Assembly: GCA_963971425.1 (NCBI GenBank)
Contig: OZ020523.1
Coordinates: 12,396,867 to 12,460,866, forward strand
Length of the DNA stretch: 64,000 nt
Direction of reading: 5' to 3'
Source: Bryoerythrophyllum caledonicum
Taxonomy: Eukaryota; Streptophyta; Bryopsida; Pottiales; Pottiaceae
Part shown: in pieces, positions 7,027-60,274 of the stretch
Position numbering within the stretch: position 1 is the stretch's first letter
How the letters are laid out: each line of letters opens with the position of its first letter
The notes under the pieces: model-generated
Told to the model about the DNA's origin: nothing
Seen by the model: the letters and a program-made list of their open reading frames with translations, nothing else
Databases searched by the model: none
Made by a program: the position numbers and the translations under genes

Positions 7027-7979
7027 TTAACCCCTAAAGGACCAAGTGTCCAAAACGGGCTTTTTGAAAATTCGGTCAGGTTCCTATGCTGTCAATTTCA
7101 AACATTCATCTTTGAAATTCTTATCATAGAAGGGCATTACCAAGACCTTAGTGGGAAAACAATTTTTTCCTAAATTGGACATTTGATGAAAAAGTTATAG
7201 GGTTTTAAATTTCAAATGGGGAGGGCGGGCACCTCGGGCACCTCCAAAAACTTTTGATAGGACACTCTATTGAATGTGAGATTTTCAATACTCGCAAGTA
7301 ATATTATTTCCCTTCATGTTGTCAAAAAAAAATTCTTGTCTTTAGTGGAAAATAGCATACCAACCCAAGTCAAACATTTTCACACATTGTCACTCATTGT
7401 CGGGCAAGGTATCAAAAAAACTTCTTCTTTTCCACATAAAACCTAGAGATCTTCATATTTTTCACTTTTTATTTTTTCCACAACAATATGTAATGTAAAC
7501 CTTCTTATTAACCATTCGGATTATCAATCAAAAACATATTAAGTTCAAAAAAAATTAAAGTGTGAATTAACAAATTTCGAGCCTCCACTCCTTGCACACT
7601 TGTTTTGAATATGCTACACCCGGTCTCTACCTCTAAAAATTGGTGTGTAAAGAGTTAACATCATGCTTAACAAGATGGTAATAGATTTAGACCTTGTGTA
7701 GTGAAATTTTTTGACACCAACTGAAGTCAAAGTCTGCTGATCCACTAAACGCACGGAAGAAAATGAACCATTTGCTTGACTTCAAGCACTATAATCTTTC
7801 AATCCGTGCGGTCAAAGTTTATGAAATTTTGTACATGTATTACTTAATAAGCCTTTAGTGAGATCCTACGGTTAGAACTAAAAATAAAAGTTTTTGTTAC
7901 CTTCTTTATTCATTGCACTAGAATCCATTAATTTTGAAGTGTTTTTGGTGTAAAACTGCCTTGGTACCTTAGGGGTTAA
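7027..7979. mobile_element. TTAA element 1 (piggyBac-like MITE, ~0.95 kb)
   Basis: TTAA at 7027-7030 and 7976-7979 bracket an element starting CCCCTAAAGGACCAAG and ending CTTGGTACCTTAGGGG. The left subterminal part (CGGTCAGGTTCCTATGCTGT) and the right part (GAAGTGTTTTTGGTGTAAAA) recur in the elements at 26944, 57818 and 59085. There is no ORF of note. The TTAA duplication and CCC-type ends are hallmarks of piggyBac transposition. Confidence 0.85.
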
Positions 7980-8792
7980 TCAGAATTGGGTGGCCAATCG
8001 GAATTGGGTACCTCTACCTTAAATGATGTTATGATTAGTTGTGATGAGATGTACCCACTGGTGACGTCTCCCAGGCCTGATCCGAGGTGTCGCCTCAAAT
8101 GGTCAAGAAGCTGAGCTGGATGTATGATGAGTTAATGTTTGATTTTTAAAACTGTTTTATATTTTTCCCCTTTTAAGGCTTGAGCTTCACGTGCCCACTC
8201 TGGAACATGACTCAGACCGAGTCATGAAGAGTCAACTTTAAAGGAAAAACCTCATTATACAAATGATTTCTAGGACTTACGCTAGAAGCATCTGTGTCAG
8301 CCCTTTTTTCGTGTTTGTGGGATAGCTACAGTGGGTACAGAGGCTAGGAAGCTGTGGCACTTCTGGCTCTCTCATGATTCCTGAAACGAAACAAAACCAA
8401 ATTTGCTCCACAAATATCCATTTTGGAGAATTCATCTCCATAAACATAGATTGTACATCCTTATTGGTGATAGGATGGAGTCCTGATTGCTCATTAGTGA
8501 CGATATGGCGATATGGCACTGGCCATCAATGAAGTTTTGGCCATACAGAATCATAATTTCTCCACTTTGGGGAATATTCCTTTTGGGGAAAAATCGCCAT
8601 TATGGCTCCAGATCCGCAAAAGAAATCAAAGGACTGATCTTTTCTATGTACGAAAGTGGCCACGTGAATCCTACTTGCAGTAAAGGCTTCCTTTAAGTGT
8701 GTTAAAAAAAACAAAGTGGGCACGTGAAGCTTCCCAAATTCCAGCAGATTATGTTGGCAGATCTAACTTACCCCAATGTTCGCAGATTATGT

Positions 8793-9360
8793 GGCCAGGG
8801 AGAATTGCGATTTGACAGGACATCCCCACGCTCAGACTTACCAGGTGGGGGACGAGGTGGTGGGGCCAAAACCTGGCCCCTATTTTGTTTTTGGATGGGA
8901 CCCTAAATTTAGCAAGAGGGGGTCTATTTAGACTAAAATGAGCCGTAGGCCCCAATTTTGTTTTAAAAAATCCCAAAAAAGCCTCTGACCCCCCAAAAAT
9001 GGGAGGGCCAAAAAAATGAGCCCATGCAATTGAGACGGGGCCCACCTCGGGTAAGTCCGAGCTTGGGGGATATCCTGTCCACGCCGGAGAATTGACCCCC
9101 TCCCTCGTCCTTACCCGAGGTGGGCCCAGTCTTAATTGCACGGGGTCATTTTTTAGCCCTCTTACTTTGGGGGGTCCAAAGGCTTTGTTTGGATTTTTTT
9201 TGGACAAATTTGGGGCCTACAGCCATTGTTTATCCTAACGGGCCATCTCTTGCTGTAAATAGGGCCCCATCCAAAAAACAAAATGGGGCCAAGTTTGGCC
9301 CCACCACCTCATGGCCCCCATGGGTAAGGACGAGCGAGGGGGTCAATTCTCCTTGGCCAG
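8793..9360. mobile_element. Composite of two ~270 bp GC-rich TIR elements
   Basis: The outer ends GGCCAGGGAGAATTG (8793) and CAATTCTCCTTGGCC (9360) are inverted repeats and are flanked by GATTATGT copies. Inside are two TIR units. One (8815-9080) is bounded by CAGGACATCCCC and GATATCCTGTCC. The other (9085-9360) is bounded by ATTGACCCCCTCCCTCGTCC and its inverted copy. Both share a core of runs such as CCCTATTTTGTTTTTGGATG and AAATTTGGGGCCTAC. The CCAGGG-type ends resemble hAT termini, but the target duplication is not certain because the flank is itself repetitive. Confidence 0.7.
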
Positions 9361-9465
9361 ATTATGTGTCTACCCCAATGTTTGCAGATTATGTGGTGCT
9401 ACCCCAATGTTGGCAAGTTATGTTGGCAGATTATGTTGTGCTACCCCAATTCCGAAGACAATAAA
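9360..9465. repeat. Degenerate tandem repeat around CCCCAATGTTNGCAGATTATGT
   Basis: Units containing GCAGATTATGTGGTGCTACC and CCCCAATGTTGGCA recur at ~35 bp spacing here and at 8750-8795 on the other side of the composite TIR element, so the element landed inside an existing array. Confidence 0.7.
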
Positions 9466-10510
9466 TAAAATAAAATAAAATATATGTGAAAAAATAAAGT
9501 GATCAATAGAGTTATCCGCAAAATACCCCAAATCCTCAGTTTCTTACCTGTAAAATGGAAAAGCCAGGGTCACCAAGTCCACTGGCAAGGTTTTACTGTA
9601 GACCTTGAATAGAACACTAGACATATTAGTTTTTGAGCCCCAGAATTCCCAAACTCTAGTTTGAGCCTGGCTTCTATTGAGCACCGAGTGTTGTCACATG
9701 GTACACACTGTTCAAGTCAGCCATGTCAACGACATTTTGCATTTGTATGCGCCAGACTTGTTCAATCAGCCATGTCAACGTCTTTGCTGAATATGCATAC
9801 CACATTGGTCCTATCAGCCTACACTGTTCAACATTGTTCTTGTTTGTTTTTGGGAGATTTGTGCCATTTGTAGTAACCGACACCTCCATAAATCCCTCAA
9901 ATCCTGAATTTATTTTACAGGATTACTTTGAGGCTACACTCAAATACAGGTTAGAGTTTCATTCCCATGAAAAAAGGAGGACAAAAGACCGGTTCCCTTT
10001 ACAAATAACTCAAGTATAGCAAAAGATTTATGAAAGTGAGCCTGTCGACCTGCATAAACAAAGGAAGCCTTTATTGCAAGAAGGATTCCTTTATTGCAAG
10101 AAGGATTCCTTTATTTGTGTGTTTGCTACAATGAGACTGTTTTTCCTTTATCAGATAGTGCAAGTAACTACGCCACTAGGACCTAAATTGCATATGCTAA
10201 GGCGGCGAACCTTTTCGACTCCACTTGGGGTTGTCATGAGTTGCTGTGTAGCGTTCAAGGCGACCACATTGCCTGGGTCAAAGAGTTTCATGTCTAGTTC
10301 GGGGTCTTGAGTCTTTGGCGTTGCCGGAACTGGCGCGCTTGTCTGTATTGGTGCCTTTTTTGCAATCAAACCTGGTTTGTTTTGTTTCAAAAAAAAATAA
10401 AAAAATAAATTGCATATGCTACCAAAAGCTTGCAATTAATCATTTCCTTAAAGTTTCTCAGCAATTCATCACAACATATGTGGCTATCACTAACATTTGA
10501 AAATCTCAGC
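9466..10510. other. No gene seen; short repeats and a LINE-type tail
   Basis: The stretch holds a 20 bp duplication (CTTTATTGCAAGAAGGATTC, ~10065-10110). It also has a plus-strand tail at about 10290-10410 ending in (A)n with AATAAA-like sequence, like the other LINE 3' tails in the window. ORFs here are short and show no family motif. Confidence 0.5.
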
Positions 10511-11382: not shown

Positions 11383-11514
11383 GTAGGCTTACAAGGGTTC
11401 ACCGTAGGCTACGATGAACCCTTGTAAGCCTACAATGAACCCTTGTAAGCCTACGATGGCTGTTGTAACTTGTTATGGAAGCCTACGATGGCTGTTGTAA
11501 CTTGTTATGGAAGC
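11383..11514. repeat. Palindromic and tandem repeat cluster
   Basis: GTAGGCTTACAAGGGTTCA and its inverted copy TGAACCCTTGTAAGCCTAC form a hairpin (11383-11433). A 22 bp unit ending CTTGTAAGCCTAC then repeats. A 32 bp unit beginning GCCTACGATGGCTGTTGTAA is present twice (about 11450-11514). Confidence 0.85.
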
Positions 11515-20899: not shown

Positions 20900-21056
20900 A
20901 ATGTGATATTTTTTCAGTTTTCAAAGTTTTGTACGCTCACCGTACACTGCTCACCGCTCACAAGATAGCATTGTTGGAAATTGACACCATACTACATAGG
21001 AACCTGACCAAACTTTTATAAAGCCCATTTTTGGCACCTGGTCCTTTAGGGTTTAA
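20900..21056 (-). mobile_element. TTAA-element end, inverted fragment
   Basis: Read on the minus strand from 21056, it starts TTAAACCCTAAAGGACCAG and continues with GGTCAGGTTCCTATG, matching the left end of TTAA element 1. The other end is not found nearby. A second loose end (CTTGGTCCTCTCAGGGTCAA) lies at about 21650-21670. Confidence 0.65.
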
Positions 21057-21688
21057 TTGTATATATACCAAAATCCGTGCAATTAAACTTTATGAAATTT
21101 TTTGGATGTTTTCTTGTAGTGATGAGCTTGAAGGTCCTACGGTTAAAAATAATATTAAGCTAATCCAATCGGTCTTTCAACGTCTCATATTAGAATGGCA
21201 ATTTTGAGGTGGTTTTGTGAAACATTGTCCCTGTCCTTTCAGGAATATATATAGACTAAAATAGAGCATATTTGATTTCAAGCTCTTTTCTTTTGTACCT
21301 ACACTCTCTTTCCCTTTTCTTTTCTTCTTTTGGAAGGAATTTTGTGAAAACTCTATTACCATGAAAGAGCTTTAAGCTAGTGGTCTAAAGTGATCTAACC
21401 TATTATCACCAAACTAAGCAATGTGCATATTTGGAACAAATGAAAATGATAGGATTTCTTTCCAATCATAGTACTTAATGTAACACTTTCAACACAAGTG
21501 ATTTGATAATTTTCCAATGAACTGCAAATTAGTTATGCATTTTCAATCAAAATTCACAAAACTTTTTCCACATCACCTCATATAAGAAGATCCTGAGGTT
21601 ACATTCTCAAAAGATTTTAAAGAATGTAGTAGATATTCCTTTGAAATGTCTTGGTCCTCTCAGGGTCAACGAAGCAATCTAAAGACGA

Positions 21689-23933: not shown

Positions 23934-24331
23934 AGGTTAGTCGACCTGTAACCACCAACTTAAGCTTGCTGACCTATTTATAGCGTTTGTATACGTGGTA
24001 AGACATTTTTTGGGAATTCAAAATAGGATTTCATGAATATTGCAATTGTCGTGACCATTAATTTCTTCATTTTGAAATTGCTACAAATTTTCAAAGTGGA
24101 TAGTAAGCCATGACCCATTCCTCGACATACAAAACTCTCTATTTCCACACTAAGTTGTACTAATGACCACTTCTGCATTGACTAAAATCCGGCAGCTTTG
24201 AACCAATCATGAACTGACACCCAATCATATCTGACTTCCTAAAATTTCGGAAATGGGGTGGGTCTGTGTGGTTTTGGTCCACTTTAGCTTGTTAGTTCTG
24301 GGGTTCGTGGTGGTTACAGGTCATCCAACCT
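23934..24331 (+). mobile_element. Stowaway-like MITE, copy 1 of an inverted pair
   Basis: Starts AGGTTAGTCGACCTGTAACC after TA and ends GGTTACAGGTCATCCAACCT before TG (a decayed TA). It shares ~90% identity with the inverted copy at 24494-24893 and the copy at 49422-49820. Confidence 0.85.
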
Positions 24332-24493
24332 TGTACATGTGAAAGAACTAGAAGTTGGTTTCATACCCTTTCTATCATGGGCTTGAAAGTGAGGTGAAGT
24401 GCTTGACAAATTGTTTTCCTTGAAAAAAAATTCTACCTGCTTGCTTCGTTGCCAATTTCAGATAAGCATACTTGGCAACATTTCCTATCACTA

Positions 24494-24893
24494 AGGTAGG
24501 ATGACCTATAACCACCACGAACCCCAGAATGGTTAAGGTAAAGTGGACTAAAACCACCACAGATCCACCCCATTTCCGAAATTTTAGAAAGTCACATATG
24601 ATTGGGTGTTAGTTCATGATTGGTTCAAAGCTGCCGGTTTTTAGTCAATGCAGAAGTGGTTATTGGTACAACTTAGTGTGGAAATAGAGAGTTTTGTATG
24701 TCGAGGAATGGGTCACGGCTTACTATCCACTTTGAAAATTTGTAGCAATTTCAATATGAAGAAATAAATGGTCACGACAATTGCAATATTCATGAAATCC
24801 TATTTTGAATTCCCAAAAAATGTCTTACCACGTATACAAACGCTACAAATAGGTCAGCAAGCTTAAGTTGGTGGTTATTAGGTCATCCAACCT
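24494..24893 (-). mobile_element. Stowaway-like MITE, copy 2 of the inverted pair
   Basis: TA|AGGTAGGATGACCTATAACC starts and TCATCCAACCT|TA ends the element, so TA flanks both sides. The interior is the reverse complement of 23934-24331. About 160 bp separate the two, giving a potential 400 bp stem. Confidence 0.88.
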
Positions 24894-26943: not shown

Positions 26944-27876
26944 TTAACCCCTAAAGGCCCAAGAGTCCCTTCAGGGGACTCTTGAAGGTTTGGGCAGGTT
27001 CCTATGGTGTCAATTTAAAAAATTCCTTTTTGAAATTTCTATTGTAGATTGACATTGCAAAAAGCTTCGTGTGAGTCCAACCTTTTCCTAAATTCGGCAT
27101 TTTATGAAAAATTTATAGGGTTTTGAATTTCAAATGAGAAGATGGAGCACATCAGGCAACTCCAAAAAGTTTTGCTAGGACAATATATTGAATGTGAGAT
27201 TTTCAATACTAGCAAATAATATGATTTCCTTTCATATTGTCAAAAAAATCTCTTTTCTTAAGTGGAAAATAGCATAATAATCTAAGCCAAACATTTTCAC
27301 ACATTATCACATATACCAAAAAAAACTTCTTATTTTCCACATAAAACTTAGAGATCTTCATATTTCTTGCATTTTAGTTTTTCTGCTACAAGATGTGGTG
27401 TAAACCTTCTTATTGACCATTCCAATTATCATCCTAAAACATATTTTGTTCACAAAAAATAAAACGTGAATTGGCAAGTTTTGAACCTCCACTCCTTGCA
27501 TTTGTTTTGAATATGCTACATCCCTTCTCTACCTCTAAAAATTGGTGTACAAGGAAATAATATCATGATCAACATGATGGTAATGTTTTTAGACCTTGTG
27601 TAGTGCAAAATTTGACACCAAGTGTAGTCAAAGTCTGTTGATCCACTCAAAGTAGGAAAGAAAAAGAACGGTTCTCTCTACTTAACACTATAATCTTTCA
27701 ATTTGTGCGGTCAAAGTTTATGAAATGTTGTGAGGACGTTAATGAATAAGTATTAATTTAGATCCTATGGTTAGATGTAGAAATAAAAGGTTTTGATTAC
27801 CTCATTACTCATTGGACTAGAACAAGCAGTTTTGAAGTGTTTTTGGTGTGAAAATGCCTTGGGCCTTAGGGGTTAA
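26944..27876. mobile_element. TTAA element 2 (~0.93 kb)
   Basis: TTAA at 26944-26947 and 27873-27876. Ends CCCCTAAAGGCCCAAG and CTTGGGCCTTAGGGG are exact inverses over the outer bases. The interior aligns with element 1 over most of its length (e.g. GTTTTGAATATGCTACA, GAAGTGTTTTTGGTGTGAAA). Confidence 0.88.
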
Positions 27877-28132: not shown

Positions 28133-29246
28133 TTAACCCCTAAAAGCCCAAGAATTTTCCCTCATGAAACACTCCAAAACTACCATCATCAACAAGTGGC
28201 AATGAAATCTAACATTAAAGTCTAATTTTAGACTTTAACCATGAAATCTTAAAATAGACATGTATATAAACTTACAATACAAATTTGGTTGCAATCCACT
28301 GCAGGGATGTGAAGATTATAGCGTTTGAAGTGCAAAGAAAAGTATTTTCCCCCCCTTGCCCGGCTAGGTCAGCCTACTTTGACTAGGCATATCTTTTAGT
28401 CTTTACAATGAAATGTGATCAAATCTTTTACCAATATGACTTATATGTTGTTAGCTATTTGTGTGCAAAATTTGAGGTCAATTCGAGGGGTAATAGATGT
28501 AGAAATATATACTTTAGTGAAAGGGGGTACAAAATGATGACAAATTCTACATAAGTGATATGAAATTGTTTGTTTCATACAAGTTGTTGCATTTGAGAAT
28601 CCCAATGGTGGAAACTTTCGATTAATTTTTTCACTAATTTTAGAAAAAGAAACGACTGAAAATAGTTAAATCCAAAATTTTTAGGAATGTATGGAATAAA
28701 TAAAGCATTATGGGAAAGGGCACTGCTTGAAATTCGGTGGCCAATTTGTCCTGCTATTGACAACCCTCGCAGCCCGACTAAAAAACAAAAAGAAAACTTT
28801 TAAAAAGAAGAAAATCTTGGCGAGCTAGCTTCTGGCGCGAGACACTGGCGGGCCGGCTGACGACTGGTTGTTTGCTGTTTTTCAAAAATTATTTTAATGA
28901 CTCTTTTAATAATTTTCAAAGCTTTTTCCACTTGGACTTTGTGCATAGAAGTCTAGACTCCTTTCCTCGCCTTTTCTGTCCCAAAATTCTGCCCCATTTT
29001 TCTCCTCAAATTGCATTGGTTGACATGGCTGCCCCTATTGTCCAGATTCCCCATTTTGACCTTTGAAGGCTAATAACTTTAGAACCAAAAGTCCAAAATC
29101 ATATTTGAAAAATTCTTCATATAGATTTCATCAAGGACAGTGCAGTGCAAAATTCTCATAAGCATTGGAGTGTTTTTTCCACTCAAAGGTACATGCCCAA
29201 AATCCAAAACGTACACGCCAAGTACACTTGGGCTCTTAGGGGGTAA
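28133..29246. mobile_element. TTAA element 3 (~1.1 kb), nested
   Basis: TTAACCCCTAAAAGCCCAAG opens it. CTTGGGCTCTTAGGGGG followed by GTAAG-like sequence closes it, so the right TTAA has one change. The interior contains TTAA-family words (AACTTACAATACAAATTTGG, CATACAAGTTGTTGCATTTG) and no intact gene. Confidence 0.75.
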
Positions 29247-31082: not shown

Positions 31083-34000
31083 TTAGTGGTCAGTGCTAAT
31101 GTTAGTGTTAGAAGGATTAATGGTACAAGGGGGAAGCAGATGCCAATGTGGTCTTTCATCCACCCAGGACGCCAAGATGTCGTTGCAGCACGAGAAGTCT
31201 TTGAACCGTTTGGTGTGCTTTTCGCACTTCTCCGGCGCGTCGCTGCGTTTGGCCAAGGTCCTGTTCCACGCGGCGCGCCCGTGGTCAATGAGGCTCATCC
31301 AAAGTTTGGTCTGCAGCTTAGGGCGGGACCATCTATTGTCGTTGAAGACCGTATCATTCCGTTCATTCCAGAGACACCAAATGACCAGCCCTCTCATGAT
31401 AAGCCACATGGAGCTGATAGGCTTGAATCTCCTGGGCACCCTATGGGCAGAAATGCCATGCATCCACGTGAGCACATGGCCATCGTGAGCATACCTGCTC
31501 TGCACGTCGTGGTCCTGAGAGTTAGTATCACCACAAAGCTGGACCAGCTACCGTTGGCTATTTTGGACGTCGAGCGTGCTTCTGCCGATTCGCGCGATGG
31601 CCTGGGGAAGCATCTTCTGCATGGTGTCAAGGCTCCATTGCCAAGCGACCTGGGCGGAGGGGCACGCCCAAAACCTGTGGATAATAGACTCTGGCGTAGC
31701 GTCCACGCAAATCGGACACTATTGGTCGACTGTGTTCTGAACCCTTTCTCTCCACATGTTGACAGCGACCGCTTTGTGCCAGACATGCCAAAGGAGACCA
31801 CCTTCTTTCCGTGTTCTGGCACCATCCCAGATGTTGAGCCATCGAAGTTTATAGGATGGAGGAAGAATCCCATTCAATTTACGTTCAACCACGGAAGGCA
31901 GTTTTTGTCTGTCTCTGAGGATGGTTCTCCCCAGTCTTGCCGTGAACTTCATGAAGGGAACCTCTCCAAGCCAAGAGTACCTAACGGGGTCCCACGTAAG
32001 CTGATCACAGCGGCCGTAGAACAAAGAAATAATCGTCCTCTTCGGGCCCCTTTCAATTTGGACGACCCGGACTCTCCTGACAAAGCCAGTGTGGGTGGTA
32101 GCATAGTCATCCCCACTTAAGTTCCATCCTGCGCTAGAGCCGCAATTTTCCCAGTCAATGAGTTGGAGACTCGCAGTGGCTCTGCGTACCGAGAATGTAA
32201 GCGTGCTGGCCGAAATTTCCATGGTCGACCAGCCAAGCTGAGGCCTGCAGTCCTCACCACTTTTAAAGACGAGGTCCGGTGAGGTGTCCACCTCAGACCT
32301 ATAGAGAGCAACCCATTCGCTGTTTGCGATAAGGCTCGACGAGCGTCTCAGCAGGTTTTGTTGCTCGTGCATGAAGTTATGCATGAGACTTTGCCAGGCT
32401 CCTGCTTCCGAGGGTGCAAGATCGAACCGCTGATGTGCCACCTCGAAGGAGATGAAGTTGCCGTTACTCCACGTGTCCCGAAGTTGTCTGAGACCGTTCT
32501 TATGGAGGGCCAGTGCTCTAATACGTGAGAAACCCGGACCAATGCTCCGAATTCCAGGGCAGTTCCAGAAGCTACAATTTAGAAGTTCATCAGTGTTTGA
32601 TGGCTTGATGAACACCAGGGAGGGAAGGAGAAGTTTCCAAGCAGTGGTGGCTCTATTCCAAACACGAGAGCCTTTGTGTGCTTGATGCCGCGGCATGGTG
32701 AAATAATCCAAGCTGCCAGGCCACCTTCCTCCAGAAAAAGGTTGGTATGCGGCAAGTCTGAATCGAAGCATGTAGTGGAGGTTCGAAGAGCCAGGTTCTA
32801 CCGCCTTCAGAATCCATTTCGTCATGAGCGCCGTGGTGGCATCTTCTATGTTGATAAGGTTGATTCCCCCTTTAGCTTTGGTTTGGTAGCATTGTAGCCA
32901 ACTTACTTTAATTCTCGAGCGCTTCATCGTACCTGCCGCAATGTAGTTCATCACTAAACTACGAACTCTTCTCACGCCTTGTTTCGTTCCACCACATAAT
33001 GATAAGTAATAAAGTGGGGCCGAGAGGAGCACGCTGTTTGCGATAATACTCCTTCCAGTGGGGTTGATTTTGGTCGAGCTCCAATACGCTAGTTTCCTGG
33101 AGACTTTGTCGAAAAGGAAGTCGTCGACAGATTTTGACGAGAGGGACATTCCGAAGGGAGATCCTAGGAGTTTACTCACATCTGAGTTGTCGATCCAGTT
33201 GATGTTAAGCTGATTCGTCCATCGCGGTCGACCCAAGCCAGACCAATCTTGCTAGTAACCACTAGATTTATTCCAGTTAATTACTAACCCTGTTGCAAGA
33301 CAAAAGACGTCCAACATATAAACTAGGTTGCGGACAGGTTCTTCTTTTCCAAGGAGGGTGAAAGATGTGCCGTCGGCGTATTGTGCCATGGTCTGTTGTC
33401 TGCTTTCCTCTGGAAGGTGAATGCCCGAGATCTTGTTTGTTCTTTCTCCTTCTTTGACCATCATGTTTAGAGCCTCTGCAACAAGTATGAACAGGCAGGG
33501 CGCCAACGGACATCCCTGTCTCACGCCTCTGTTAATCGGGAACTGGGGGGAGGTGATGCCGTTGATCTTTACAGATGAGGAAGCGTCCTGAAGCAAGATC
33601 CGAATCATGTCGATGAATCCTGGTGGGAACCCTAACGTTGCCAGAATTTTGAGCATGCAGCTCCATTCCACCATGTCATACGCTTTTGTGAAGTCGAGTT
33701 TTAGAAAGAGAAGGGGTTGGTTTGTCTGTTCAGCCCACGCCATGGTCTCATGCGTGAGAAGAAGGTTGTCTAGTATGAAGCGTAGGGGGAGGAAGGCTGA
33801 TTGTTCTGGGCTCACTATCTCCATCAGGATGGGTTGTAGCCTTAGTTGAAAGGTTTTTGCATTAATCTTGTACGCCACGTTCAATAGAGAAATAGGTCTC
33901 CAATTTGTGAGTTCATTGCGTGCTTCGGCTTTGTGGAGAAGCGCGAGTGTCCCATGCGTGAGTCCATTTGGAAGTCTCCCTGTCGCAATGCTGTTGGTTA

Positions 34001-35512: not shown

Positions 35513-35738
35513 ACTGGCTGGGGGGGTTCGGGAGCACCAAGGCTGCGCTAGTGCTTTCGGGATGAGGCGGTTGTCGCATAGTTCTGGGCGCCTTACTTTT
35601 GGACTGGAGATGGACTCCTAGTTCACTGTGTCGATGGTCTAGTTGCCGCTTGCCAAGCTTGCTATGTGCGGGATTCCGTGAGGGGAGTCTAGCTTTAACC
35701 GGAGAGTACGTTAGGGGTATATCGCCGAGTCTCTGCTC

Positions 35739-37856
35739 TCAAAGCCAGTCCCTCAGTGCTGATTCGACGTGGGCAGGTATCTGTCTTTGAGTCTTCCCTG
35801 TGTGTGGTGAAGTTGCATGGCATCTTCCGGATCTATCGTCTTGCTTCAAGTGGGCGTCTATTCCTAGACTGAGTCCATCAGTGTCACAGGTTCTTCCAGT
35901 AAGGCGGGAGTCTCCCCCTGCATTCAAGTCTAGTTGACTATGAGTTTTCCAGGCTGAGTTTGTTGGCCGTGGCTCAGCCTCATTCATCTCCATATCTTCC
36001 ACCTCTATGGTCGTTTCTCGTGCTCCGAACCTTGCAATTGTGTAGGCCGCATCCGTCGTGTTTCCACTATGATGGCTGGGGAGGATCGGAGGTTTCCCAG
36101 AGGAAGCTGAAGAGTTGTTCTCCGTTAATCTCAAGTGGGTGGGTTCCTTCGAACCGCACTCCTCCTCTGTTTCCCTTCGATTCTCGGGGTCGTTGTTGAT
36201 TTCTTTGTTTCTGTCTACTTCTAATGTATCTTGTTCCTGGGCCATACGAACCATTCTCATGTGAATATCCAGGCTTCGTCTGAGTTTGCGGGCCTGTACA
36301 CTGCCTCCGTCCACGGCACTGGAGGCAAGAATAGGTGCTTCCTGTGGAGGCTCGTCCCTTGTTCGCCATTCTTGGCGAGCCGCGTTAAGTTCGTTTACTT
36401 CGGAGAATTCCATCATGTTAGGTGAGGAAGCGTAACCTCTGATCTTTTCTCTCTCTCTCCATTCCTCTACTCTGAGTCCTCGTTGCCAGATTCTGGTGGA
36501 AGGACCTGCTCCCGCTGCGCCATCCATTTTGCGTTGATTTTTCTTTTGTTGGTTCTCTAGGACCTTCTCGTCCTGTCTGATTTCTTTGCCTCTCTGTTGC
36601 AGGGTTGGTCTCAATGGCGGGGTGGACCGTGCGACGCCGACCGTCTTTGCTTTACCTCCCTCCATGCTACCGCGCTCATCCTGGCTCGAGTTTAGGGTGC
36701 TAGAGATAGACGCTGCCCTGGTTGTTGTGTCTGCTTGAAGTTGTGGAGATCACCGGGAGTTCTGAAGGGCCTTGTAGTCCTTAATCAAATGGCAAGTGGC
36801 TAGGCAGAATCGACAGCGGATGGGGAGGTTGTTGTAGTCCACTTCTACTACTGTGACTTCTCTAGATATCGGATTAGTGACATCTATTTTCACTATGAAT
36901 GGCTTCCCAGTCTGTACTACTATGCAAAATTTCTGATCAGAGGCGTAGAGGTTTCCTTTGTGTCGGCCTACCACTCTTCCCAGACATTGAGCGATGTCTT
37001 GTCCGCTACTGCGTAGCTCATCAGGGATTGCTTTCAGTGTAATCCAGACCGGAATTTGTGCTTTGGCTGGCATGCTTGATATGAACCATGCGACCCACGG
37101 CTGCATAATACATGTGTCCCACCTCGAGAGGTGAGGAGTGAGCATTAGTAGTGATTGTGTAGTTGCTTCCTCTTGCGTTGTTACCTGGAAAAATCCGTGC
37201 CGGAGGTCTCTGCCAATTTGGCACTCGCCCTTTGCTTCCTTCAAAACTGTTGTGGTCCATTTCTAGAGTTCTTCCCATCTCGACCTCCCTCCTACAAAGT
37301 ACGCTATCACCACGCTCATCTAGAAGCGCTCCATTTCCTTTTTTACTCGCTCTGCGTCTATGGTGATGGTTGCTGCTTCCTTCCTGACTAAGAAGCCAAC
37401 ACTTGTGCGAAAAAGAGAGGTTGGGAGTTTTTCACCTGGAAGCGCTCTAGTCGGGTTGAACTCCGCATGTTGTCCCAGGTGTGCAGCCGCCGCTATTAGC
37501 TCCGGTTCTATGATTTCCTGTCGCTCAAGGTCTTCCGCTTTCCTCGCATTTTTTGAAGTGGTTGCCAGAATGGGCGCGTGTGCCAATGTCGACGTGAGTA
37601 CTGCGACATAGCTCGCTGTCGTTGTGCTGTGTAGGGGATCTGAAGGGGCATCTCCTGCTGCCTATCCCTGTTCTGATGGCTGGATTGATCTTGATTTAGG
37701 GTTCGGGGAGGTCACGTTCTTGACCATCCGTGCATCCTCAGTCTCTTGTTCTTGTAGTTGAGGCGGACGCTGGTCGCTCTCTCTCCTTGTTCCACCCCTG
37801 ATCGGTGCCCTCATTCTGCCCTCCCGTGCTTGTTTTCCCGTTTGTGTACGTCGCAT
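35739..37856 (-). pseudogene. LINE ORF1: DUF4283-like nucleic-acid-binding protein
   Basis: One minus-strand frame runs from the ATG at 37856 to 35739, broken by stops at 37662, 37320 and 36750. Basic N-terminal sequence is followed by a DUF4283-like domain (WITLKAIPDELRSSGQDIAQ, LGRVVGRHKGN, FIVKIDVTNP) and a zinc knuckle reading CRFCLATCHLIKDY at ~36790. There the final Cys of the CX2CX4HX4C pattern is Tyr. The remaining ~300 codons are hydrophilic, as in plant L1 ORF1 proteins. It lies immediately upstream of ORF2. Confidence 0.8.
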
Positions 37857-38224: not shown

Positions 38225-38312
38225 TTAAAATCAATTTTCTTCCCCCTTTGTGACAAATGTGATTTTGGAGTATTTTTGGAGAAAATTTGTCTTGGAATTT
38301 TAGGGGTTCAAC
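38225..38312. mobile_element. TTAA-element right-end fragment
   Basis: Ends CTTGGAATTTTAGGGGTTCA, a mutated form of the CTTGGNCCTTTAGGGGTTAA terminus. The left end is lost, possibly removed by the LINE insertion just to its left. Confidence 0.5.
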
Positions 38313-38340
38313 TTGAAACATTCTAGCACAAGAGTGTGCG

Positions 38341-38547
38341 TTAACCCCTTAAGGACCAAGTGTTCCTTTGGGAGATAATTTTTAAATTTGACTACGATTA
38401 TCTTTCAATCTGTAGAGTCAAAATTTTACCACATCATCTCATGTAAGTTTAGAAAACCCTACAATTACATTCTCAAAGTACATCTTGACAACTTTAAATC
38501 AATGGAGTAGAGATTTCTCTGAAATGCCTTGGTCTCTTAGGGATTAA
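38341..38547. mobile_element. TTAA element 4 (207 bp, compact)
   Basis: TTAA at 38341 and 38544. Ends CCCCTTAAGGACCAAG and CTTGGTCTCTTAGGGA. The interior matches the right part of the fragment at 21540-21670 (CACATCATCTCATGTAAG, ATTACATTCTCAAAG). Confidence 0.85.
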
Positions 38548-39275: not shown

Positions 39276-40081
39276 TTAACCCCTAAAGGACCAAGACAAT
39301 TTCCCCTCAAAATCACTCCAAAACTGCCATTTTCAGCACATTCAACACAAAATGATACAAAATGTTTTTTCTGAGAACAAGACCATAGGATCATGTACTA
39401 GAGTTGTATGAGAGTGTGTGGTGAAAATTTTGGTAAGTTTGACTGCACGGATTGAAAGATATCGGCCTTTGAAGTGAGACATAATCTCTTTTTGAGGTCA
39501 TACTAAACACCTTCAACAAACTTCGACCACCTTCTATGGCAACTTTTTGCACTACTGACCATGAAATTTTAGGGAAAAAGATCATGTTAGGCACATGTGC
39601 ACTAAATTTTAGAAGTAGAAGAGGTGTAGAAGATGTCCTAAATAATCCTGCAATGCAACTATGTGCTGAGAATCAACAATACACTTTATATTTTGCATAT
39701 ATCATATCCTTCTTAAATTTTTGAAATTCACAAATCCGTATGGTAGATGCAAAGATCTCAATTTTCTTTTCAAGAGGAAATTTTTTCCTTTTAAATGGAC
39801 AGAAACTCAAATTTCTATTGAATTTAGAAGTTATTAAAGTTTAGTGATAGTATTTGTGATATGTCACACTAAACTGCTGCACTATTTGTATATGTAAGTG
39901 AAATAAATTGTAACTTTTGAACCGTAAGTCGGAATTCTACGAAATTTGTGTCTACGCAAAGCTAATCAAAAGTTGTCCATTCATTAAAAAATCTCAGAAA
40001 ATAATGCCTAGAATTGAGAACATGGTACCTTACCCAAACTCAAACTGTCACTCGAGGGGACTCTGGTCCTTTAGGGGTTAA
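39276..40081. mobile_element. TTAA element 5 (806 bp)
   Basis: TTAA at 39276-39279 and 40078-40081. Ends CCCCTAAAGGACCAAG and CTCTGGTCCTTTAGGGG. The left interior (CACTCCAAAACTGCCATTTT) is shared with elements 3, 7 and 8. Confidence 0.88.
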
Positions 40082-41935: not shown

Positions 41936-42675
41936 TGACAACTATTTTTTGTGGTGCTACGCTTTTGTTAAAAAAAATGAACTGGTTTAGATTTTTGTAA
42001 GATTTTTTCCATATATTTTTGCTTGAACACACGTTATCAAAGAAAACTATAGATTGTACCATAGTGAGATTTTTTTGGAAATTTGCATTTTAACTTTTTT
42101 TAAGGAATTTAATATGTTTTAGAATAATAATCAAAATGGTCAATAAGAAGGTTTTCATCACATATTGGTATGAGCTATTTCTATTGCATTTCTATATTTA
42201 TTTATTCTAGCTCCAATCCCCTGCCGTTGTAGATACAATATGCTACAGTAGATAGAGGAGTGTAGCATATTGGAAACAACTATAGAAGGAGTGGAGCTTG
42301 AAGAATTATTAGGACATGTTTTAGTTTACTGTGATCTTTTTATGAATTTGATTTATAATCCAAATGGTCAATGAGCAGGTTTAGATCCATATTATACAAA
42401 CAACCCAGCCTTCGGAATTTGTTGACAAAATGTTAATTTTATCAACCTTCTACCGCCAAATGTAGTATGAGCAAAAGAATATGATCTTTAATATCCAACT
42501 TACATCCATAAAAATTGAAAATAAATAAAAATAAATAGTTTAATTTCCACTAGGAGTTTGGGAGAATCTAAGTTTTAATGAGTAGGATTTTGAAGAACCC
42601 ACTGTATAAATAACTTCTCTATCATAGCTTCGCCTTTTGCTTTTGCTCTCTCTATCTCACGGTAAACTCATAGCC

Positions 42676-43914
42676 TCACATTCCCAAAACCTTGATAACG
42701 ATCTTAATATCATGCGGTAGCACCCCTTGGCTTCGGCAAGTTGCGTTCCTGACAAAATTATATAACCAACAATATGCCACGGTAACCCTTGCCGCTATGT
42801 CAACCCTAAAGTCAAAATTTCGGAGATATTGCCATTTGTTCTTAAGGGATCCAAACGCACTTTCAATAACGATCCTCCCTGAGTTCATAACACTATCAAA
42901 CCTCTTCTTGTCTTCATGTTTTGGTGACTTTCAATTCTTCTGCAAATATGTAGGGATTGGATAAGCTGAATTGTCAATCAAGTAAGGAGTGCAGAGTTTC
43001 CTTCCAACATCTACAACTGGCGTCTGCAGAATGGTCCGGCTCCTCAAAGCTTTGTATGTACTAGACACTTTAAATTGCCTTCCATCATGAACACCACCAA
43101 GTTGACTTGTACACACATTCCATAAAATTTTGTTTGCATCGCAAACAACTTGTAGAACAATAGAGTTGAATTTTTTTCGGTTGTAGAAGTCATTTGGTAC
43201 AATGGTGGCTCTTCTATTTGGTTGAGTTTTAAGAGGAATGTGAATTCCATCAATTGCACCGCAATTCTTAGGTAATCGTGTGATGTCCTAGAAATTGTCT
43301 ATATTGCCTTGCAATCGTTCTCGTGTGGGGATACCTATACACATACCGAACAATTTGTTCTTGTCGTAGAGAATGTTTGAAACTATGTCCATGTACTTGC
43401 AAATGGTGGAACCTCCGACATGGAAGAGATTGGCCATTCGATCTGGTTTGGCAGCATGTGCAAACCTGTAGAGTACCACTACCACAATCTTCCTAATCTT
43501 CAGTTGGGGCCTACCCGAGTTTATGACATTTGACTCCACATTAGGTCTTAAAATTTCAACCAATTGATCAAATGCACTAGGGCTCATTCTCAAGGCGTCG
43601 ATGTACCTCTTATGCTCCATTTCATCACACGCTCTTGAAATCGTAGGTTGAATGTACTTCCAAAATATTTTTTGCCTATGCTCCACCTAGAACATCTATA
43701 GAGGATAAGTCTCCCTGGTAGCTATTGATAACATCAAAGATAGATAAACATAGGAGCAACTCATAGGGTCCAAAGAGGTTGTTGCCCTGGACTTATGAGT
43801 CTTGATGTTAGACAATAGTAATGTAGGATTACCCAATGGCATTGTAGAATTGCCCAATGTTATTAACAAGGACATCCACAAAATGGCATTTGTACTGGAG
43901 AACGCAGGGTCCAT
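42676..43914 (-). pseudogene. PIF/Harbinger DDE transposase with in-frame stops
   Basis: A single frame of 413 codons runs from the ATG at 43914 to the stop at 42676, the usual length for this family. It is interrupted by stops at 43696, 43687, 43288 and 42931 and no frameshift. Motifs in order: 'RMSPSAFDQLVEILRP' and 'LYRFAHA..DRMANLFHVG' (helix-turn-helix-like N-terminal region), GAIDGIHIPL (first Asp, ~43250), GGVHDGRQF (second Asp, ~43085), LIDNSAYPIPTYL, and RIVIESAFGSLKNKWQYL (Glu, ~42860). All three catalytic residues are kept, so inactivation is recent and by point mutation. Terminal inverted repeats of this element were not located. Confidence 0.88.
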
Positions 43915-45473: not shown

Positions 45474-46171
45474 TTAACCTCTAAAGGACCATTTGTACCT
45501 GCGGGGTGCAAATCATTTTTTGGCAGGTTCCAAAAAATCCGTTTCTGAGGTTACCTTCTTGAAATTTTTAGTGAGAATAGAACTATGGGTTATCTTCGTA
45601 GGGATTTTTTTGAGACTAGTAAGGAAAAAGTTATGGTGCTTCAACATGAAAAGCTCGACTCTTTTGAAGGTACTATTAGAGATGATTTGTGCTACTATAG
45701 AGTTGGCAATTGCACTTTTTGAGGTAGATAGTAGTGAAGGTAAATTTTTGGCAACCTTCATTGTTTTCACTTTAAAATGCATAGAAATTAAGGATTTTTC
45801 TTGTTGTAAACACCTCCATTACTTGTGGTTATTGGCGTGTGATGACCTATCAAAAGTTAAAACATAGATTGGTTGAGTATATGCTATGTTTAATGCAAAA
45901 ATAAGCCATTATTTTGAGTCAAAGTACACTAAACTTGTCCGGGTAGAGGAGAAAAAATACAATCTTGCACTCTTCAAATGCTTATATCTTTTAATCCAAA
46001 CGGTCAAATTTTATGAAAATTTTAGAGTGCCTTTTCATAGTATTAAGCTTGAAGATCCAATGGTTGAAAATAGTAAAAAATAATTTGAATAAGTCTAATA
46101 ATACCTCATCTCAAAGTGGCAGTATTGGGGTGCTTTTGGTGAATCACAAGGCCTGGTCCGTTAGGGGTTAA
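45474..46171. mobile_element. TTAA element 6 (698 bp)
   Basis: TTAA at 45474-45477 and 46168-46171. Left end CCTCTAAAGGACCA, right end CCTGGTCCGTTAGGGG. The interior holds TTAA-family words (TTTAATCCAAACGGTCAAAT, GAAGATCCAATGGTTGAAAA). The 124-codon plus-strand frame inside is also present as a minus-strand frame and is not supported as a gene. Confidence 0.82.
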
Positions 46172-49421: not shown

Positions 49422-49820
49422 AGGTTGGATGACCTATAACCACCAACTTAAGCTTGTTGACCTATTTATAGCGTTTGTATACGTGGTAAGGCATTTTTTG
49501 GGAATTCAAAATAGGATTTCATGAATATTGCAATTGTCGTGACCAGTTATTTCTTCATATTGAAATTGCTACAAATTTTCAAAGTGGATAGTAAGCCGTG
49601 ACCCATTCCTTGACTTACCCAACTCTCTATTTCCACACTAAGTTGTACTAATGACCACTTCTGCATTGACTAAAATCCGGCTCCTTTGAACCAATCATAA
49701 ACTGACACCCAATCATATTTGACTTCCTAAAATTTCGGAAATGGGGTGGGTCTGTGGTGGTTTTAGTCCACTTTACCTTGTCCATTATGGGGTTCGTGGT
49801 GGTTATGGGTCATCCAACCT
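49422..49820 (+). mobile_element. Stowaway-like MITE, single copy
   Basis: TA|AGGTTGGATGACCTATAACC opens and GGTCATCCAACCT|TA closes it, with exact TA on both sides. The interior is close to 23934-24331 and has the best-preserved termini of the three. Confidence 0.9.
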
Positions 49821-49856
49821 TAATCCCAATCGAATAGTTTCATGCTAGTTTACGCC

Positions 49857-55603: not shown

Positions 55604-57018
55604 TTAACCCGTACAGGACCAAGCCTTGTGCCTCACCAAAACCACCCCAAAACTACCACTTTAACATGAGATATTAATAGACTAATTCAAACCTCCATTT
55701 ACTATTTTAAACCATAGGATCTTCAAGTTAACTATCAAAAGAAGACACCCAAATAATTTTGTAAAAGTTGGTTGTGCGGATTGTAAGATACATGCATCTG
55801 AAGAGTGCAAAATGGTTTTTTTCCATTGTGCCCGGACAGGGCCAGTGTACTTTGGCTCAAGATATTGGCATATTTTTCCACTACACATTGCATAAGCTCA
55901 ATGGATCTATGTTCTACCTTGTGTTAAGTCATTGCACGCCAAAAATCACAAGTGATGGAGGTTTATGATAAAGGAAAAAGTCTTGCAATGACTAAGGGTA
56001 TAAAATGTGGCCATTTCCATAACAAAGCAATTTTATTTTCTATTAAAATAAATATTCTATGGATCTAAAATCCAAACAGTACATGACAGTATCACGCGTT
56101 CTTTTATTAAAGGGGGTTCAGATGAAATTTTGGATTACTATGCATTTTTATATACATTTTTTAAGGGTTTCCTTCAATGTTTCCCGCCTCAAAATATTGT
56201 ACTATCCACCTCTTGTAAGTTCAAAGAAGAAAGATTTTTTTTCCCAAAAAGACAACATGTATTCCTATTCTCAGTAAAAAATTATAGCATTTATCATCTT
56301 TCATCTCCTATCAAGTCTAACAAAAAATTAATATCATAGGAACTTGTTCGAATTCTCAAAAATGCTCATTCATGAAGAATTCAATTTTCCAAATCACAAT
56401 TGTTTAAACACAATGGGTACTATCTAGGTATTACATGGGTACCACCTAGGCATTACATGGGTACCACCTAGGCATTACATGGGTACCACCTAGGCATTAC
56501 ATGGATATCACCTAGACAAATATCTTGAATTTTTCCAAAATTTTTGGACATCCTCCATTGTGAATTAATTATGTATAAAAGTGACAATTGCATAGGGTAC
56601 ATCACTACAAGACCTCAAGGATTCTCTTGGAGCTCTAAGAAACAAAATGGAAGTGTTGTATGCATTGAGAGATATCAACAAGCACAAAAAGGTGAAGAGC
56701 CTCTTAGAGACAAATTTCAATCAAATTTTAAGACCAAAATCATTTTGCATGTATAAAAAAATATAACATAGTATGTGGCAGGCTATTTTGTAAATTTTCA
56801 TTGTATTTCACTGTATTTGATGTATTTTGCAATGTATTCCTAGTTTTCCATGAGCTCCATAACTCCAAATTGTGATATGATTTTTACAAAGTATCCTTGT
56901 AGTGTGTGCGCAAAATTTTCATTGAATTTCACAACTTAATTCCTTATGGATTTTATGCAAATTGAGATTTAACACATTCAAAGACTACATTTGGACCTCT
57001 CAGGAACTAAAGGGTTAA
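55604..57018. mobile_element. TTAA element 7 (~1.4 kb, longest complete one)
   Basis: TTAA at 55604-55607 and 57015-57018. Left end CCCGTACAGGACCAAG. The right end, read inward, is CCCTTTAGTTCCTGAGAGGT. The left interior matches elements 3 and 8 (CAAAACTACCACTTTAACAT, GTGCGGATTGTAAGAT). A 22 bp minisatellite (56414-56512) lies inside. No intact gene. Confidence 0.75.
56414..56512. repeat. Tandem repeat, 22 bp unit, ~4.5 copies
   Basis: GGGTACCACCTAGGCATTACAT repeats with few changes. Similar CCTAGG/ATACC words occur at 19430-19500 and 40595-40630, hinting at a shared ancestral minisatellite. Confidence 0.92.
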
Positions 57019-57817
57019 TAATGGTTGGTTAGCCTTTTGCACTTCATTTTGCCTACTTCTCTTCTTGTACTTTGTTCAATTGGTTGAACATCAACTAGGG
57101 TCTTTGATATTCGAGTACTATTACGCAAATATGGATCATGACTTACTTTTAGTTAAATCACATAAAATGTGAGATAGCCATCTAAATACAATAAATCAAA
57201 TTCTAAATGTTGGCTCTTTGGGAAATCAGATACTATAGAAAAGCTTCAGCTTGCACTAGATAGATTCTCAAAACATTGATTGCTATTGCCACTTATTCAA
57301 TTCATTGGTGGTAAAAATGAAAGCATAATATCTTGTCCTTGATTTCTTTTGCTATATCTCCTAAAAGACAAATGTCCATCAATGGGCTTTTTGAGAACTT
57401 GAAGAACTTCTTGTGGTGTCATTTCAACAATTTTTCTTAAAATTTTTTAAGCAAGAACAATAAGCTTTGTGGGAGTATATAGAATACAAATTCCAACATT
57501 TGATGAAGAGACTATGATACTCAAAGCTAATTTTCTGTGAGGGCAAGGTGTTTAGGCAATTTACTAAGTCACGTAAGAAAATGAGTGAGTTTGAATATAT
57601 GTAACCAACATACCTTCCTTCGAGATTTTACCAAAAGAAGGCTTTCGCCGGTGCAAGAATTTTGCACCAAGAGGAGTGATAGTTTCCAACCACCATGAAA
57701 AAAGGTCTTTCGTTATTTTGCGTTTGTGAACTAGATTAGGAGATTTTGCACTCTTCTTTCTTTCCACTTTAAGAAAACACAACATTATTTATGATGTAGA
57801 AGCAGAAAGGTCATATA

Positions 57818-59090
57818 AACCCTAAAGATCAAAAGTCCCAAGGAGGGCATTTGCGAATCTTGGGAACGTTTCTATGATTGTAATTTTGAAATTTTGTACA
57901 AATATGCAAGAAGATAAGAGCTGTATATTGGGAATATGAGTTATGTTTTTATAGAACCTATGGGAAATAATTGTGCCATCTTAACCCCTAAAGGACCACG
58001 ACCACTTTCGCTCTAAAACCTGTCCAAAACTGCCACTGCCAAAAAGAGACATGAAAATCACATTTTAAAGTGTATTTTGGATTTTCAACCATAAAATCTT
58101 AAAATAGACTTCTACGTAAACATGCCATTAAATTTTGATTGCAATTCACCTCACGGATTGATAGATTTTAGTGTTTAAAGTCAAAACAATGGTTCATTTT
58201 CTTCCCTGCATTGAGTAGATCAGCTGACTTTGACTTCATTTTGTATCAAATTTTTGCAGTGCACAAGGTCTAAATCTTTTACCATTGTCTTAAGCATGAT
58301 GTTATTTCCCAACACACCAATTTTTAGAGGTAAAAAAGGGGTGAAGCATATTCAAAACAAGTGTGCAAGGAGTGGAGATTCAAAAATTGCCATTTCACGT
58401 TTTATTTTTTTGTGAACTACGTATGTAATTGAATGATAATCCAAACGGTCAATAAGAAGGTTTTCACCACATATTGTTATTGAGAAAATAAGAAGTGAAA
58501 AATATGAAGATCTCTAGGTTTTATGTAGAAAAGATGAATTTTTTTTCCCCCATTGCCTGACAATGTGTGAAAATGTTTGACTTGGAATAAAATGCCTTTT
58601 AACACTAAAGACAAGAATTTATTTTGAAACTTTCTAAAGAAGGAAATATTCTTTATATGTGTGAAAAATCTCAATGTCAATAGAAACTTTTGTCAAAGTT
58701 TTTGGAGGTGCCCGGAGTCCCCACTTTTGGCTTTATGTGGTACTAACTTTCAAACCACATATCCAAAAAATAAAATAAAAATATCTCCACAAAACTCTTA
58801 TAAGAGGCAATCTTAAATAAAAATTTCAAAGAAAAAGGATTTTTTTTTTCGAATTTTAGGAACGTGCCCAAAATCAGAAATCCCCCCGAAGGAGATTTGG
58901 TCCTTTAGGGGTTAATTTTTTTTTATTGAGGGTGAGTACATTGGGCAACTTCAAAACATTTTGTTAGGACCCTCTCTTATACATGAGAGTTTTAATAGAA
59001 GTAAGTAATATTTATTTTTCACATTGAAAAAAGTCTTCCTAGGTGTAAAGCTTTGTTTCCAAGATGAGTCAAAGTCTTTTTTACCCCTAA
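57818..59090. mobile_element. TTAA-family element interrupted by another TTAA element
   Basis: The left end is a decayed TTAA-type terminus (ATAAACCCTAAAGATCAAAA). 57830-57980 matches the left part of element 1 (GTTTCTATG.TTG.AATTT), and 58916-59075 matches its next segment (GGGCAACTTCAAAAC, TTAATAGAAGTAAGTAATAT). Element 8 (57981-58915) sits between these two halves. The right side ends at an inverted fragment of the same family (TTACCCCTAAGGTACC, 59083). Confidence 0.75.
57981..58915 (-). mobile_element. TTAA element 8 (935 bp), nested
   Basis: TTAA at 57981-57984 and 58912-58915. Ends CCCCTAAAGGACCACG and ATTTGGTCCTTTAGGGG. The interior is largely the reverse complement of element 1 or 2 (e.g. 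AAAATTGCCATTTCACG, CACACCAATTTTTAGAGGTA). Insertion into a TTAA of an older family member explains the split host. Confidence 0.88.
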
Positions 59091-59371
59091 GGTACCGTGA
59101 CAGTTTTACACCAAAAACACTTCAAACTAGTTTGTTACCTTCTTTATTCGTTGCCACCTACGCGATCTTTACCTTCCTTTTCTCCCTTTCCGTCTCGCTT
59201 TCCAACCTTTTTCCTCCTCCAACTGTTTGATCATAGCTTTGTCTGCTTCCCGATCGCATCATTCGTGTTGCCTGCGTTGTCCATTTTTGCAGAGTGTTTG
59301 GTCTACTCGAAACTTAGCCAAAGCTTTAAAATTCTCTTCTTGACAGACTCGAAAAATAGTTGGATTCCACC
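59091..59371 (+). promoter_or_regulatory. Leader of small-protein family copy 3
   Basis: CTTTCCAACCTTTTTCCTCC and CATCATTCGTGTTGCCTGCG weakly follow the copy 1 and 2 leaders (TTCGTGTTGC). TCTTCTTGACAG (59334-59345) corresponds to the splice-acceptor-like TTCTCTTGCTGGCAG of the other copies. The first bases overlap the inverted TTAA-family fragment. Confidence 0.4.
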
Positions 59372-59740
59372 ATGGCTGCACAAGAGAACGGAGCAGCCCC
59401 ACGCCCAGGGAGGAACAGAGTGGGACCCGCAGGACCGGTGGAAGGTCTAGTCATCGCCAATGTGGCACCTCAAGTGGCGGGCCCTATCAACGTCGCGGCT
59501 CACATCGTGGGCCCTGTCAACGTGAATGTGGCAGCTCACGTGATGGGCCCACTCGTCGCCAACGTTGCATGTGATGTGGTCGGTCCTGTCAACGCCAACG
59601 TGGTGGGTCCCCCAGCACAACCAATCGACATCGCCAATATTGGTGGAGCATCGGGTATTACTTTCGACGTAGAAACGGGTCTTCTTGGTTCTCCACCTCG
59701 GAAGAGTGACATTGCCTTTCACATGCACGCCAGGATTTAG
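59372..59740 (+). CDS. Small ANVA-repeat protein, copy 3 (122 aa, longest)
   Basis: The ATG at 59372 (CCACCATGGCT) gives MAAQENGAAPRPGRNRVGPA. Six or seven degenerate repeats follow (VIANVAPQVAGPI, NVAAHIVGPV, NVNVAAHVMGPL, VANVACDVVGPV, NANVVGPP), then AQPIDIANIGGASGITFDVE and the tail TGLLGSPPRKSDIAFHMHAR-I. The repeat is a ~10-14 residue unit built on [V/I]-x-x-x-[V/M]-x-GP. At DNA level it is a tandem of GTGGGCCCTGTCAACG-like units. The 3' flank is unlike that of copies 1 and 2, so this is an older or separately moved copy. Function unknown. Confidence 0.65.
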   Translation: MAAQENGAAPRPGRNRVGPAGPVEGLVIANVAPQVAGPINVAAHIVGPVNVNVAAHVMGPLVANVACDVVGPVNANVVGPPAQPIDIANIGGASGITFDVETGLLGSPPRKSDIAFHMHARI

Positions 59741-60140
59741 TATTGGAGGCCTACAAGTTAGTCTGATGTATTATTTGTTTCAAGTTAAACCTGTGTGTAC
59801 AGTTAACCTTATCAATTCTACAGTTAAGAGGTGGGCATGTTGGGTTTTACTCTCATTTTCTTCTAGTGTTTGCATTTTTATGCATCCGGGATGCCCCCGT
59901 TCCTGTGCAATATGAGTGATTTGTGGCCAGTCTTTGCTTGTTATGTGTATGGTTGCAAACTGAAAAGATAGTTGAGGTATTATTACATTCAAGAAGACCA
60001 TTAGCTTCCTAGAACCATATTGATTCAGACTCCAACTTCTCACTTGACCTCACATCCATTCAAGATGTCAACTTGTTCCAAATACATCACATTTTACATT
60101 GAATATGTATCATATCCTTCTAACACTTGTTCATATGACA

Positions 60141-60274
60141 TTAACCCTTTAAGGACAATGGTCAAATCTGGTCGCTGCGAGAGTATAGAAGTGTTGTAGA
60201 TTTGGTCAGCATAATCTACAACTCTCGTAGATTCTTGTCGCGACCATATTCGACCATTGTCCTTAAAGGGTTAA
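60141..60274. mobile_element. 134 bp foldback TTAA element
   Basis: TTAA at both ends. The outer bases TTAACCCTTTAAGGACAATG are perfectly inverted at the right end, and the palindrome continues with mismatches to the centre (TTGTAGATT/AATCTACAA). The whole element can form one hairpin. Confidence 0.92.

Follow-up and report, generated by a model that had tools for sequence, protein, structure and literature searches.

The stretch analysed here, a window of 64,000 nucleotides from the land plant Bryoerythrophyllum caledonicum (contig OZ020523.1 of assembly GCA_963971425.1, positions 12,396,867 to 12,460,866 of the forward strand), carries nine complete transposable elements that begin at TTAA, together with the degenerate relic of a piggyBac transposase, a superfamily best known from animals. 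The elements are very probably non-autonomous members of the piggyBac superfamily, mobilised in trans by piggyBac transposases that longer elements of this genome encode. The window belongs to the contig handled here as C11, in an assembly of 437 Mb and 894 contigs. The nine elements measure 953, 933, 1114, 207, 806, 698, 1415, 935, and 134 bp in the order below, and sum to 7,195 of the 64,000 bases, or 11.2% of the window. They are listed with the relic, the sample being described further on:

7027 to 7979, plus strand: non-autonomous TTAA element of the 953-bp family, an 18-member cluster in the sample with a mean identity of 84.2%
26944 to 27876, plus strand: 953-bp family member like the element at 7027 (79.8% over the full length)
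28133 to 29246, plus strand: non-autonomous element of the 1.1-kb family; its right tetranucleotide is GTAA, not TTAA
38341 to 38547, plus strand: 207-bp miniature inverted-repeat transposable element (MITE) of the family of about 220 bp; its right end has TCCC
39276 to 40081, plus strand: non-autonomous element of the family of about 820 bp
45474 to 46171, plus strand: 698-bp element whose right half and the left part of the element at 55604 are related (77% over 363 bp)
55604 to 57018, plus strand: 1415-bp element without a full-length relative in the sample
57981 to 58915, plus strand: 935-bp chimera, its body like the reversed element at 7027 (78.8% over 591 bp) and its left 255 bp like the element at 28133 (71.8%)
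60141 to 60274, plus strand: 134-bp foldback, 81% self-complementary over its whole length
294 to 1898, minus strand: degenerate piggyBac transposase relic in two pieces (294-1025 and 1702-1898), with in-frame stops

The original prediction had named eight elements and a foldback at these positions, and all nine starts proved exact and lie at TTAA, while the bounded elements span the 134 bp to 1.4 kb that it had given (134-1415 bp). Its description of TTAA and an inverse end on both sides holds for most of them, the deviations being the right GTAA of 28133, the weakly matched right end of 55604 (TTAACCCTTTAGTTCCTGAG, read inward), and the variant left ends of 45474 (TTAACCTC, with CCTC) and 55604 (TTAACCCG). 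The foldback carries the variant end TTAACCCTTTAAGGACAATG on both sides. Sequence is shared between 57981 and both 7027 and 28133, as well as between 45474 and 55604, and the combination in 57981 of a 7027-like body with a 28133-like end indicates that ends and bodies have been exchanged between families. The frame at 45478-45867, the sole element frame scanned against Pfam, had no match there. A 22-bp tandem repeat of 4.7 copies (56413-56515) lies within the element at 55604-57018.

The transposase relic that had been reported in the same window was also recovered, as its minus-strand frame at 285-692 matches the piggyBac transposase domain PF13843 (E 1.1e-15); a second frame of the same strand (903-1259) falls below the cut-off (E 0.0048). 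In a tblastn comparison with the genome's own transposases, a glycine replaces the second catalytic aspartate. The span of the relic also holds a 20-bp minisatellite (1253-1508), of 12.8 copies at 99%.

The terminal sequence TTAACCCCTAAAGGACCAAG is greatly over-represented in both the window and the genome. On the two strands of the window, 21 sites matched it with at most five mismatches, against 0.55 expected as the mean of 20 first-order Markov shuffles, none of which gave a match with three mismatches or fewer; at six mismatches the count was 10 against 4.3, and at seven (23 against 28.8) the excess was absent. Across the genome, 7,976 forward and 8,111 reverse matches with at most two mismatches were counted, or 16,087 in total, and the reversed-pattern control gave 3 and 0. 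Elements of this kind would thus probably number on the order of ten thousand, and the window is richer in such ends than the genome, with 12 at this threshold against approximately 2.4 expected from the genome-wide count. The usual terminal recognition sequence consists of TTAA followed by CCC(C/T)TAA and some family-specific bases.

The families were delimited in a sample of 264 kb, made up of the window and 20 regions on contig C1, each of 10 kb, the transposase loci being read separately. The resulting table holds 43 complete elements, two of which (38341 and 55604) were added by hand, and leaves aside 20 left-type ends without a partner and one spurious 38-bp pair. These elements fall into eight clusters of two or more and four singletons, the largest cluster being that of 18 elements, mostly of 933-961 bp (one of 1378 bp), followed by clusters of five at approximately 820 bp (80.0% identity), five at approximately 220 bp (71.4%), and three at approximately 1.1 kb (88.6%), and by four pairs. 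For seven of the nine window elements, the sample contains relatives that match along 70% or more of the longer copy; for 60141 and 55604 it contains none of this extent. No stretch similar to the genome's piggyBac proteins (E 1e-3) was present in any of the 43.

Noncoding sequence, terminal inverted repeats (TIRs), and many copies of similar length are all observed, as expected for MITEs. Under the length limit of 50-800 bp used in a plant survey (PMC12550479, cited here, like the other papers below, from an excerpt), three of the nine window elements qualify (207, 698, and 134 bp) and six are longer, so that non-autonomous piggyBac element is the better term for most of them. Of the MITE radiation driven by piggyBac that had been proposed, the large cohort and the piggyBac drive are supported, and the name MITE is not retained for these six; the attribution to “this lineage” stands on one genome, seen as the 264-kb sample and the transposase loci.

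The target site is equally constant. All 52 sampled ends with at most two mismatches to the 16-mer CCCCTAAAGGACCAAG are preceded by TTAA; as 21 of them lie in regions picked by their TTAA, the fair figure is that of the other 31 ends, none chosen for this feature and all preceded by TTAA, a few of them from duplicated places. For the empty-site test, the two flanks of each element were fused around a single TTAA and aligned to the fetched sequence, excluding loci L001-L008, seven of which duplicate places in L024-L030. Sixteen alignments spanned the junction for nine elements, and 13, for six elements, were clean, with no base gained or lost at the junction; those not counted were L033:4253 and W:57981 (gaps near or at the junction) and L042:4952 (74.6% identity), and in one that was counted, that of 7027 with L026, a gap of 8 bases occurs 11 bases away from the junction, on its outer side. 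This comparison with paralogous empty sites, which the original prediction had proposed as a check, found one tetranucleotide at each clean site, TTAA in eight of the 13 and an altered form in five (2 TCAA, 2 TTGA, and 1 GTGA).

Six of these alignments derive from a single site in one repeat, in which L025:4480-5430 and L035:7958-8776, elements that belong to different families, occupy the same TTAA, and which is empty in three copies (window 6558-6748, L032, and L026). The element at 7027 has paralogous empty sites in L032 and L026 (TTGA) and in L035 (GTGA). The 207-bp element at 38341 sits inside a 53-nt stretch resembling DDE_Tnp_4 transposase genes, and its target has seven uninterrupted paralogous copies, six reading TTGA and one TGGA.

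The source of the transposase is indicated by the rest of the genome, where PF13843 has at least 120 matches (116 scored out of 305 candidates), the best at E 6.2e-81 and many in long open frames, and where none of 14 control genomes was matched. One autonomous element, C2:9959202-9964750, is 5,549 bp long and ends in TTAACCCCTAAAGGCCCAGG and TTAACCCCTAAAAGCCCAAT, both read inward. Its 474-aa frame matches PF13843 (E 4e-71) and the Trichoplusia ni piggyBac transposase 6x67 (E 4.6e-26), with the aspartate motifs aligned, residues whose roles we take to be catalytic; homology to the transposase occupies at least two frames of the element. Four more transposase loci with 474-aa frames carry the same ends, for five copies in total. 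The four additional copies were read solely around the ends predicted from the C2 element, and all eight of their ends lie at most 35 bp from the prediction and are 97.7-100% identical over 304-361 bp. The homology of the five copies stops at, or at most 10 bp from, TTAA, and nine of their ten tetranucleotides are TTAA, with one ATAA. The near-identity of these copies argues for recent movement.

The first 20 bases of the window element at 26944 are the end of two of these autonomous copies (L052 and L053). Two other transposase loci bear TTAACCCTTAAAC-type ends, one end having been read at each: L055 has TTAACCCTTAAACGCCCAGG, and a protein 40% identical to the C2 transposase, and L056 has TTAACCCTTAAACGACATTT. 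Of the four transposase loci examined, all but L045 have the outer TTAACCC(C/T)TAAA. The gene content points to a land plant, and probably not to a seed plant. The NAC domain PF02365 gave 31 exon-wise matches (approximately 18 genes by our count), a number unusually low for seed plants, and none in the 14 controls, NAC being a plant family, as is DUF4283, and the NAC and piggyBac genes co-occur on the large contigs C1, C2, C4, C7, C8, and C14.

Four features define the assignment to piggyBac. The duplication is the 4-bp TTAA. The termini show the 5'-CCC...GGG-3' motif of piggyBac, with the exceptions of the left end of 45474 (CCTC) and the right end of 38341 (TCCC). A PF13843 transposase lies within elements with the same ends, in the autonomous 5.5-kb family, and the catalytic aspartates are present in its 474-aa frame. 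The elements insert at TTAA, length is mostly constant within a family, and their ends recur on an autonomous piggyBac family. In its duplication, its termini, and its transposase alike, the system is, as judged from its sequence, piggyBac; the signature that the original prediction had recognised is borne out by empty sites of a single tetranucleotide and by the C-rich and G-rich termini of the elements that encode piggyBac. The comparison with autonomous termini, also proposed there, shows the same ends on the 5.5-kb family, with which the 953-bp family agrees in the terminal 16-20 bases only.

This last result is one of several that weigh against the assignment, in that the 953-bp family and the autonomous family read end to end have just those 16-20 terminal bases in common, and none of the loci read yielded an autonomous copy that carries the subterminal sequence of the former. 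Similarly, the 4.9 kb read at L045, which has an 813-aa frame in a partly masked stretch, contain no good end and just one weak candidate, mismatched at two of the first 12 bases; the L045 protein is 48-49% identical to the C2 transposase. TTAA precedes just 10 of the 19 ends with three mismatches, and 10 of the 43 paired elements have one tetranucleotide that is one base off TTAA, in a pairing that favoured TTAA. Three insertions (7027, 38341, and L039:4305) lack any paralog that reads TTAA, and at L030:8695 one of two paralogs does not. A strict choice of TTAA would be a simpler account of the non-TTAA paralogs than the acceptance of TTGA, if the enzyme chose, or mutation gave, those copies that had TTAA.

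One alternative is that the elements are of PIF/Harbinger type, with a 3-bp TTA or TAA duplication, in which TTAA represents TTA plus a conserved A, and are driven by DDE_Tnp_4, a domain that we take to mark PIF/Harbinger. The window contains a second relic, at 42931-43287, which matches DDE_Tnp_4 (E 8.6e-9), approximately 540 bp from two degenerate interior blocks of the 953-bp family that lack ends (42074-42393), and the genome has at least 150 matches to this domain (PF13359; 893 candidates), many in open frames. The duplication alone cannot formally separate TTA plus A from TTAA. This reading is nevertheless very improbable, given the four fixed bases at 52 of 52 sampled ends and the piggyBac loci that do carry these ends. 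Moreover, none of the 15 DDE_Tnp_4 loci fetched from the at least 150 had such an end at four mismatches or fewer (there was one match at five), which is a weak test in that approximately 1.5 kb was read per side and the piggyBac ends are themselves at distances of 1.5 and 3 kb from their domain; TIRs with 3-bp duplications were found at the same 15 loci just as chance-like pairs. Harbinger had seemed a likely driver while DDE_Tnp_4 was the sole transposase of the window, and was dropped on the evidence of the PF13843 matches, the same-ended copies, and the piggyBac relic.

Kolobok elements likewise duplicate TTAA, and membership of that superfamily is scarcely credible when its termini, 5'-RR...YY-3' according to PMC9587614, are set against the 5'-CC...GG-3' found here. 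The transposase that shares these ends is also piggyBac, no search aimed at the Kolobok transposase having been made. There is just as little to commend a spread of the copies mainly through segmental duplication of larger repeats rather than transposition. At least three pairs of places (L024/L027, L039/L043, and L001/L040) do have both flanks in common and are duplicated segments, the first two of which are included in the count of 43 elements. Beyond these pairs, the flank comparison lists no different places that match on both sides, homology between the autonomous copies ends at TTAA or no more than 10 bp from it, and empty paralogous sites are present.

For mobilisation in trans by piggyBac, the mechanism proposed is that the short elements, which keep the terminal recognition sequence and lack the transposase, depend on others, and that transposases of one or several piggyBac lineages with the common core TTAACCC(C/T)TAAA would bind and move each short family. 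Excision may leave no footprint, and the short families may have arisen through internal deletion and the swapping of ends and interiors.

The window also contains isolated ends of related elements, at positions 21037, 21650, 38291, and 59080:

20972 to 21056, minus strand: orphan element end that differs from the 20-mer at two positions and resembles the left 78 bp of the element at 7027
21559 to 21669, plus strand: orphan right end like the element at 38341 (71% over 124 bp), with the tetranucleotide TCAA
38262 to 38310, plus strand: 3' end of an older related element, with approximately 50 bp recognisable and the tetranucleotide TTCA
59080 to 59126, plus strand: orphan element end resembling the 953-bp family (91% over 47 bp)

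Partner ends were searched for 21037 and 59080, and a left end for the older element ending at 38310, and none was found. The TTCA end of the latter adjoins the DDE_Tnp_4-like stretch (38262-38340), whose paralogs also read TTCA, and this element might represent a non-canonical insertion at TTCA. Elsewhere in the window, a minus-strand frame at 4363-4776 matches PF22776, the C-terminal domain of a K+ transporter (E 2.7e-9), and may represent either the end of a gene or a pseudogene. The minus strand carries a long interspersed nuclear element (LINE) at 31083-37661; it has a reverse transcriptase domain, interrupted frames, and a DUF4283-like first part just below the cut-off (25.6 against 27.2 bits). 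An inverted repeat of 327 bp, 96% complementary with a 275-bp spacer (23949-24877; copy at 49436-49822), has the look of another mobile element. The Rfam search of the window gave no match.

MITEs of coral genomes reportedly use piggyBac-type ends. Those described from two such genomes (PMC2872659) resemble the present elements in being noncoding, flanked by TTAA, and tied to piggyBac, and differ in their host and in that six of the nine elements here measure 0.8-1.4 kb. The system shares with T. ni piggyBac (PDB 6x67) and piggyBat (9c0f) the TTAA duplication, the CCC...GGG ends, PF13843, and the aligned aspartates, and it departs from them in its 5.5-kb length, its transposase homology in at least two frames, the outer core common to three of the four transposase loci, and its land-plant host. 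The Tourist/PIF-Harbinger and Stowaway MITEs of plants are also short TIR elements of high copy number, unlike the present ones in their duplications (TAA/TTA and TA; PMC10004981), their ends, and their transposases.

The presence of piggyBac in plants is already on record in the excerpts consulted, and so is not unheard of. PiggyBac is counted among seven angiosperm MITE superfamilies (PMC10004981) and among the DNA transposon superfamilies of plants (PMC10794571), has, according to an abstract, been obtained from plants as well as from insects and fungi (PMC10813416), and contributes 1,230 pieces to the repeat table of a fern (PMC6890710). On the other side, the portion available of the MITE survey of 207 plant genomes gives five superfamilies and Micron and, by text count, contains neither “piggybac” nor “TTAA” (PMC12550479), and the literature search, over such excerpts, did not meet a plant for whose genome the transposase has been linked with the ends, with empty sites, and with a non-autonomous cohort of large size.

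Whether a land plant hosts a native and recently mobile piggyBac system, in which at least two transposase lineages with a common terminal core have together amplified non-autonomous elements to numbers on the order of ten thousand, is in our judgement an evenly balanced question. A review of piggyBac as a tool states, in the part available, that in plants of various kinds every DNA transposon found leaves footprints (PMC10905368), a claim that a native plant piggyBac would make directly testable. If excision is clean, as it is in animals, plants would have a native cut-and-paste transposon that leaves no footprint.

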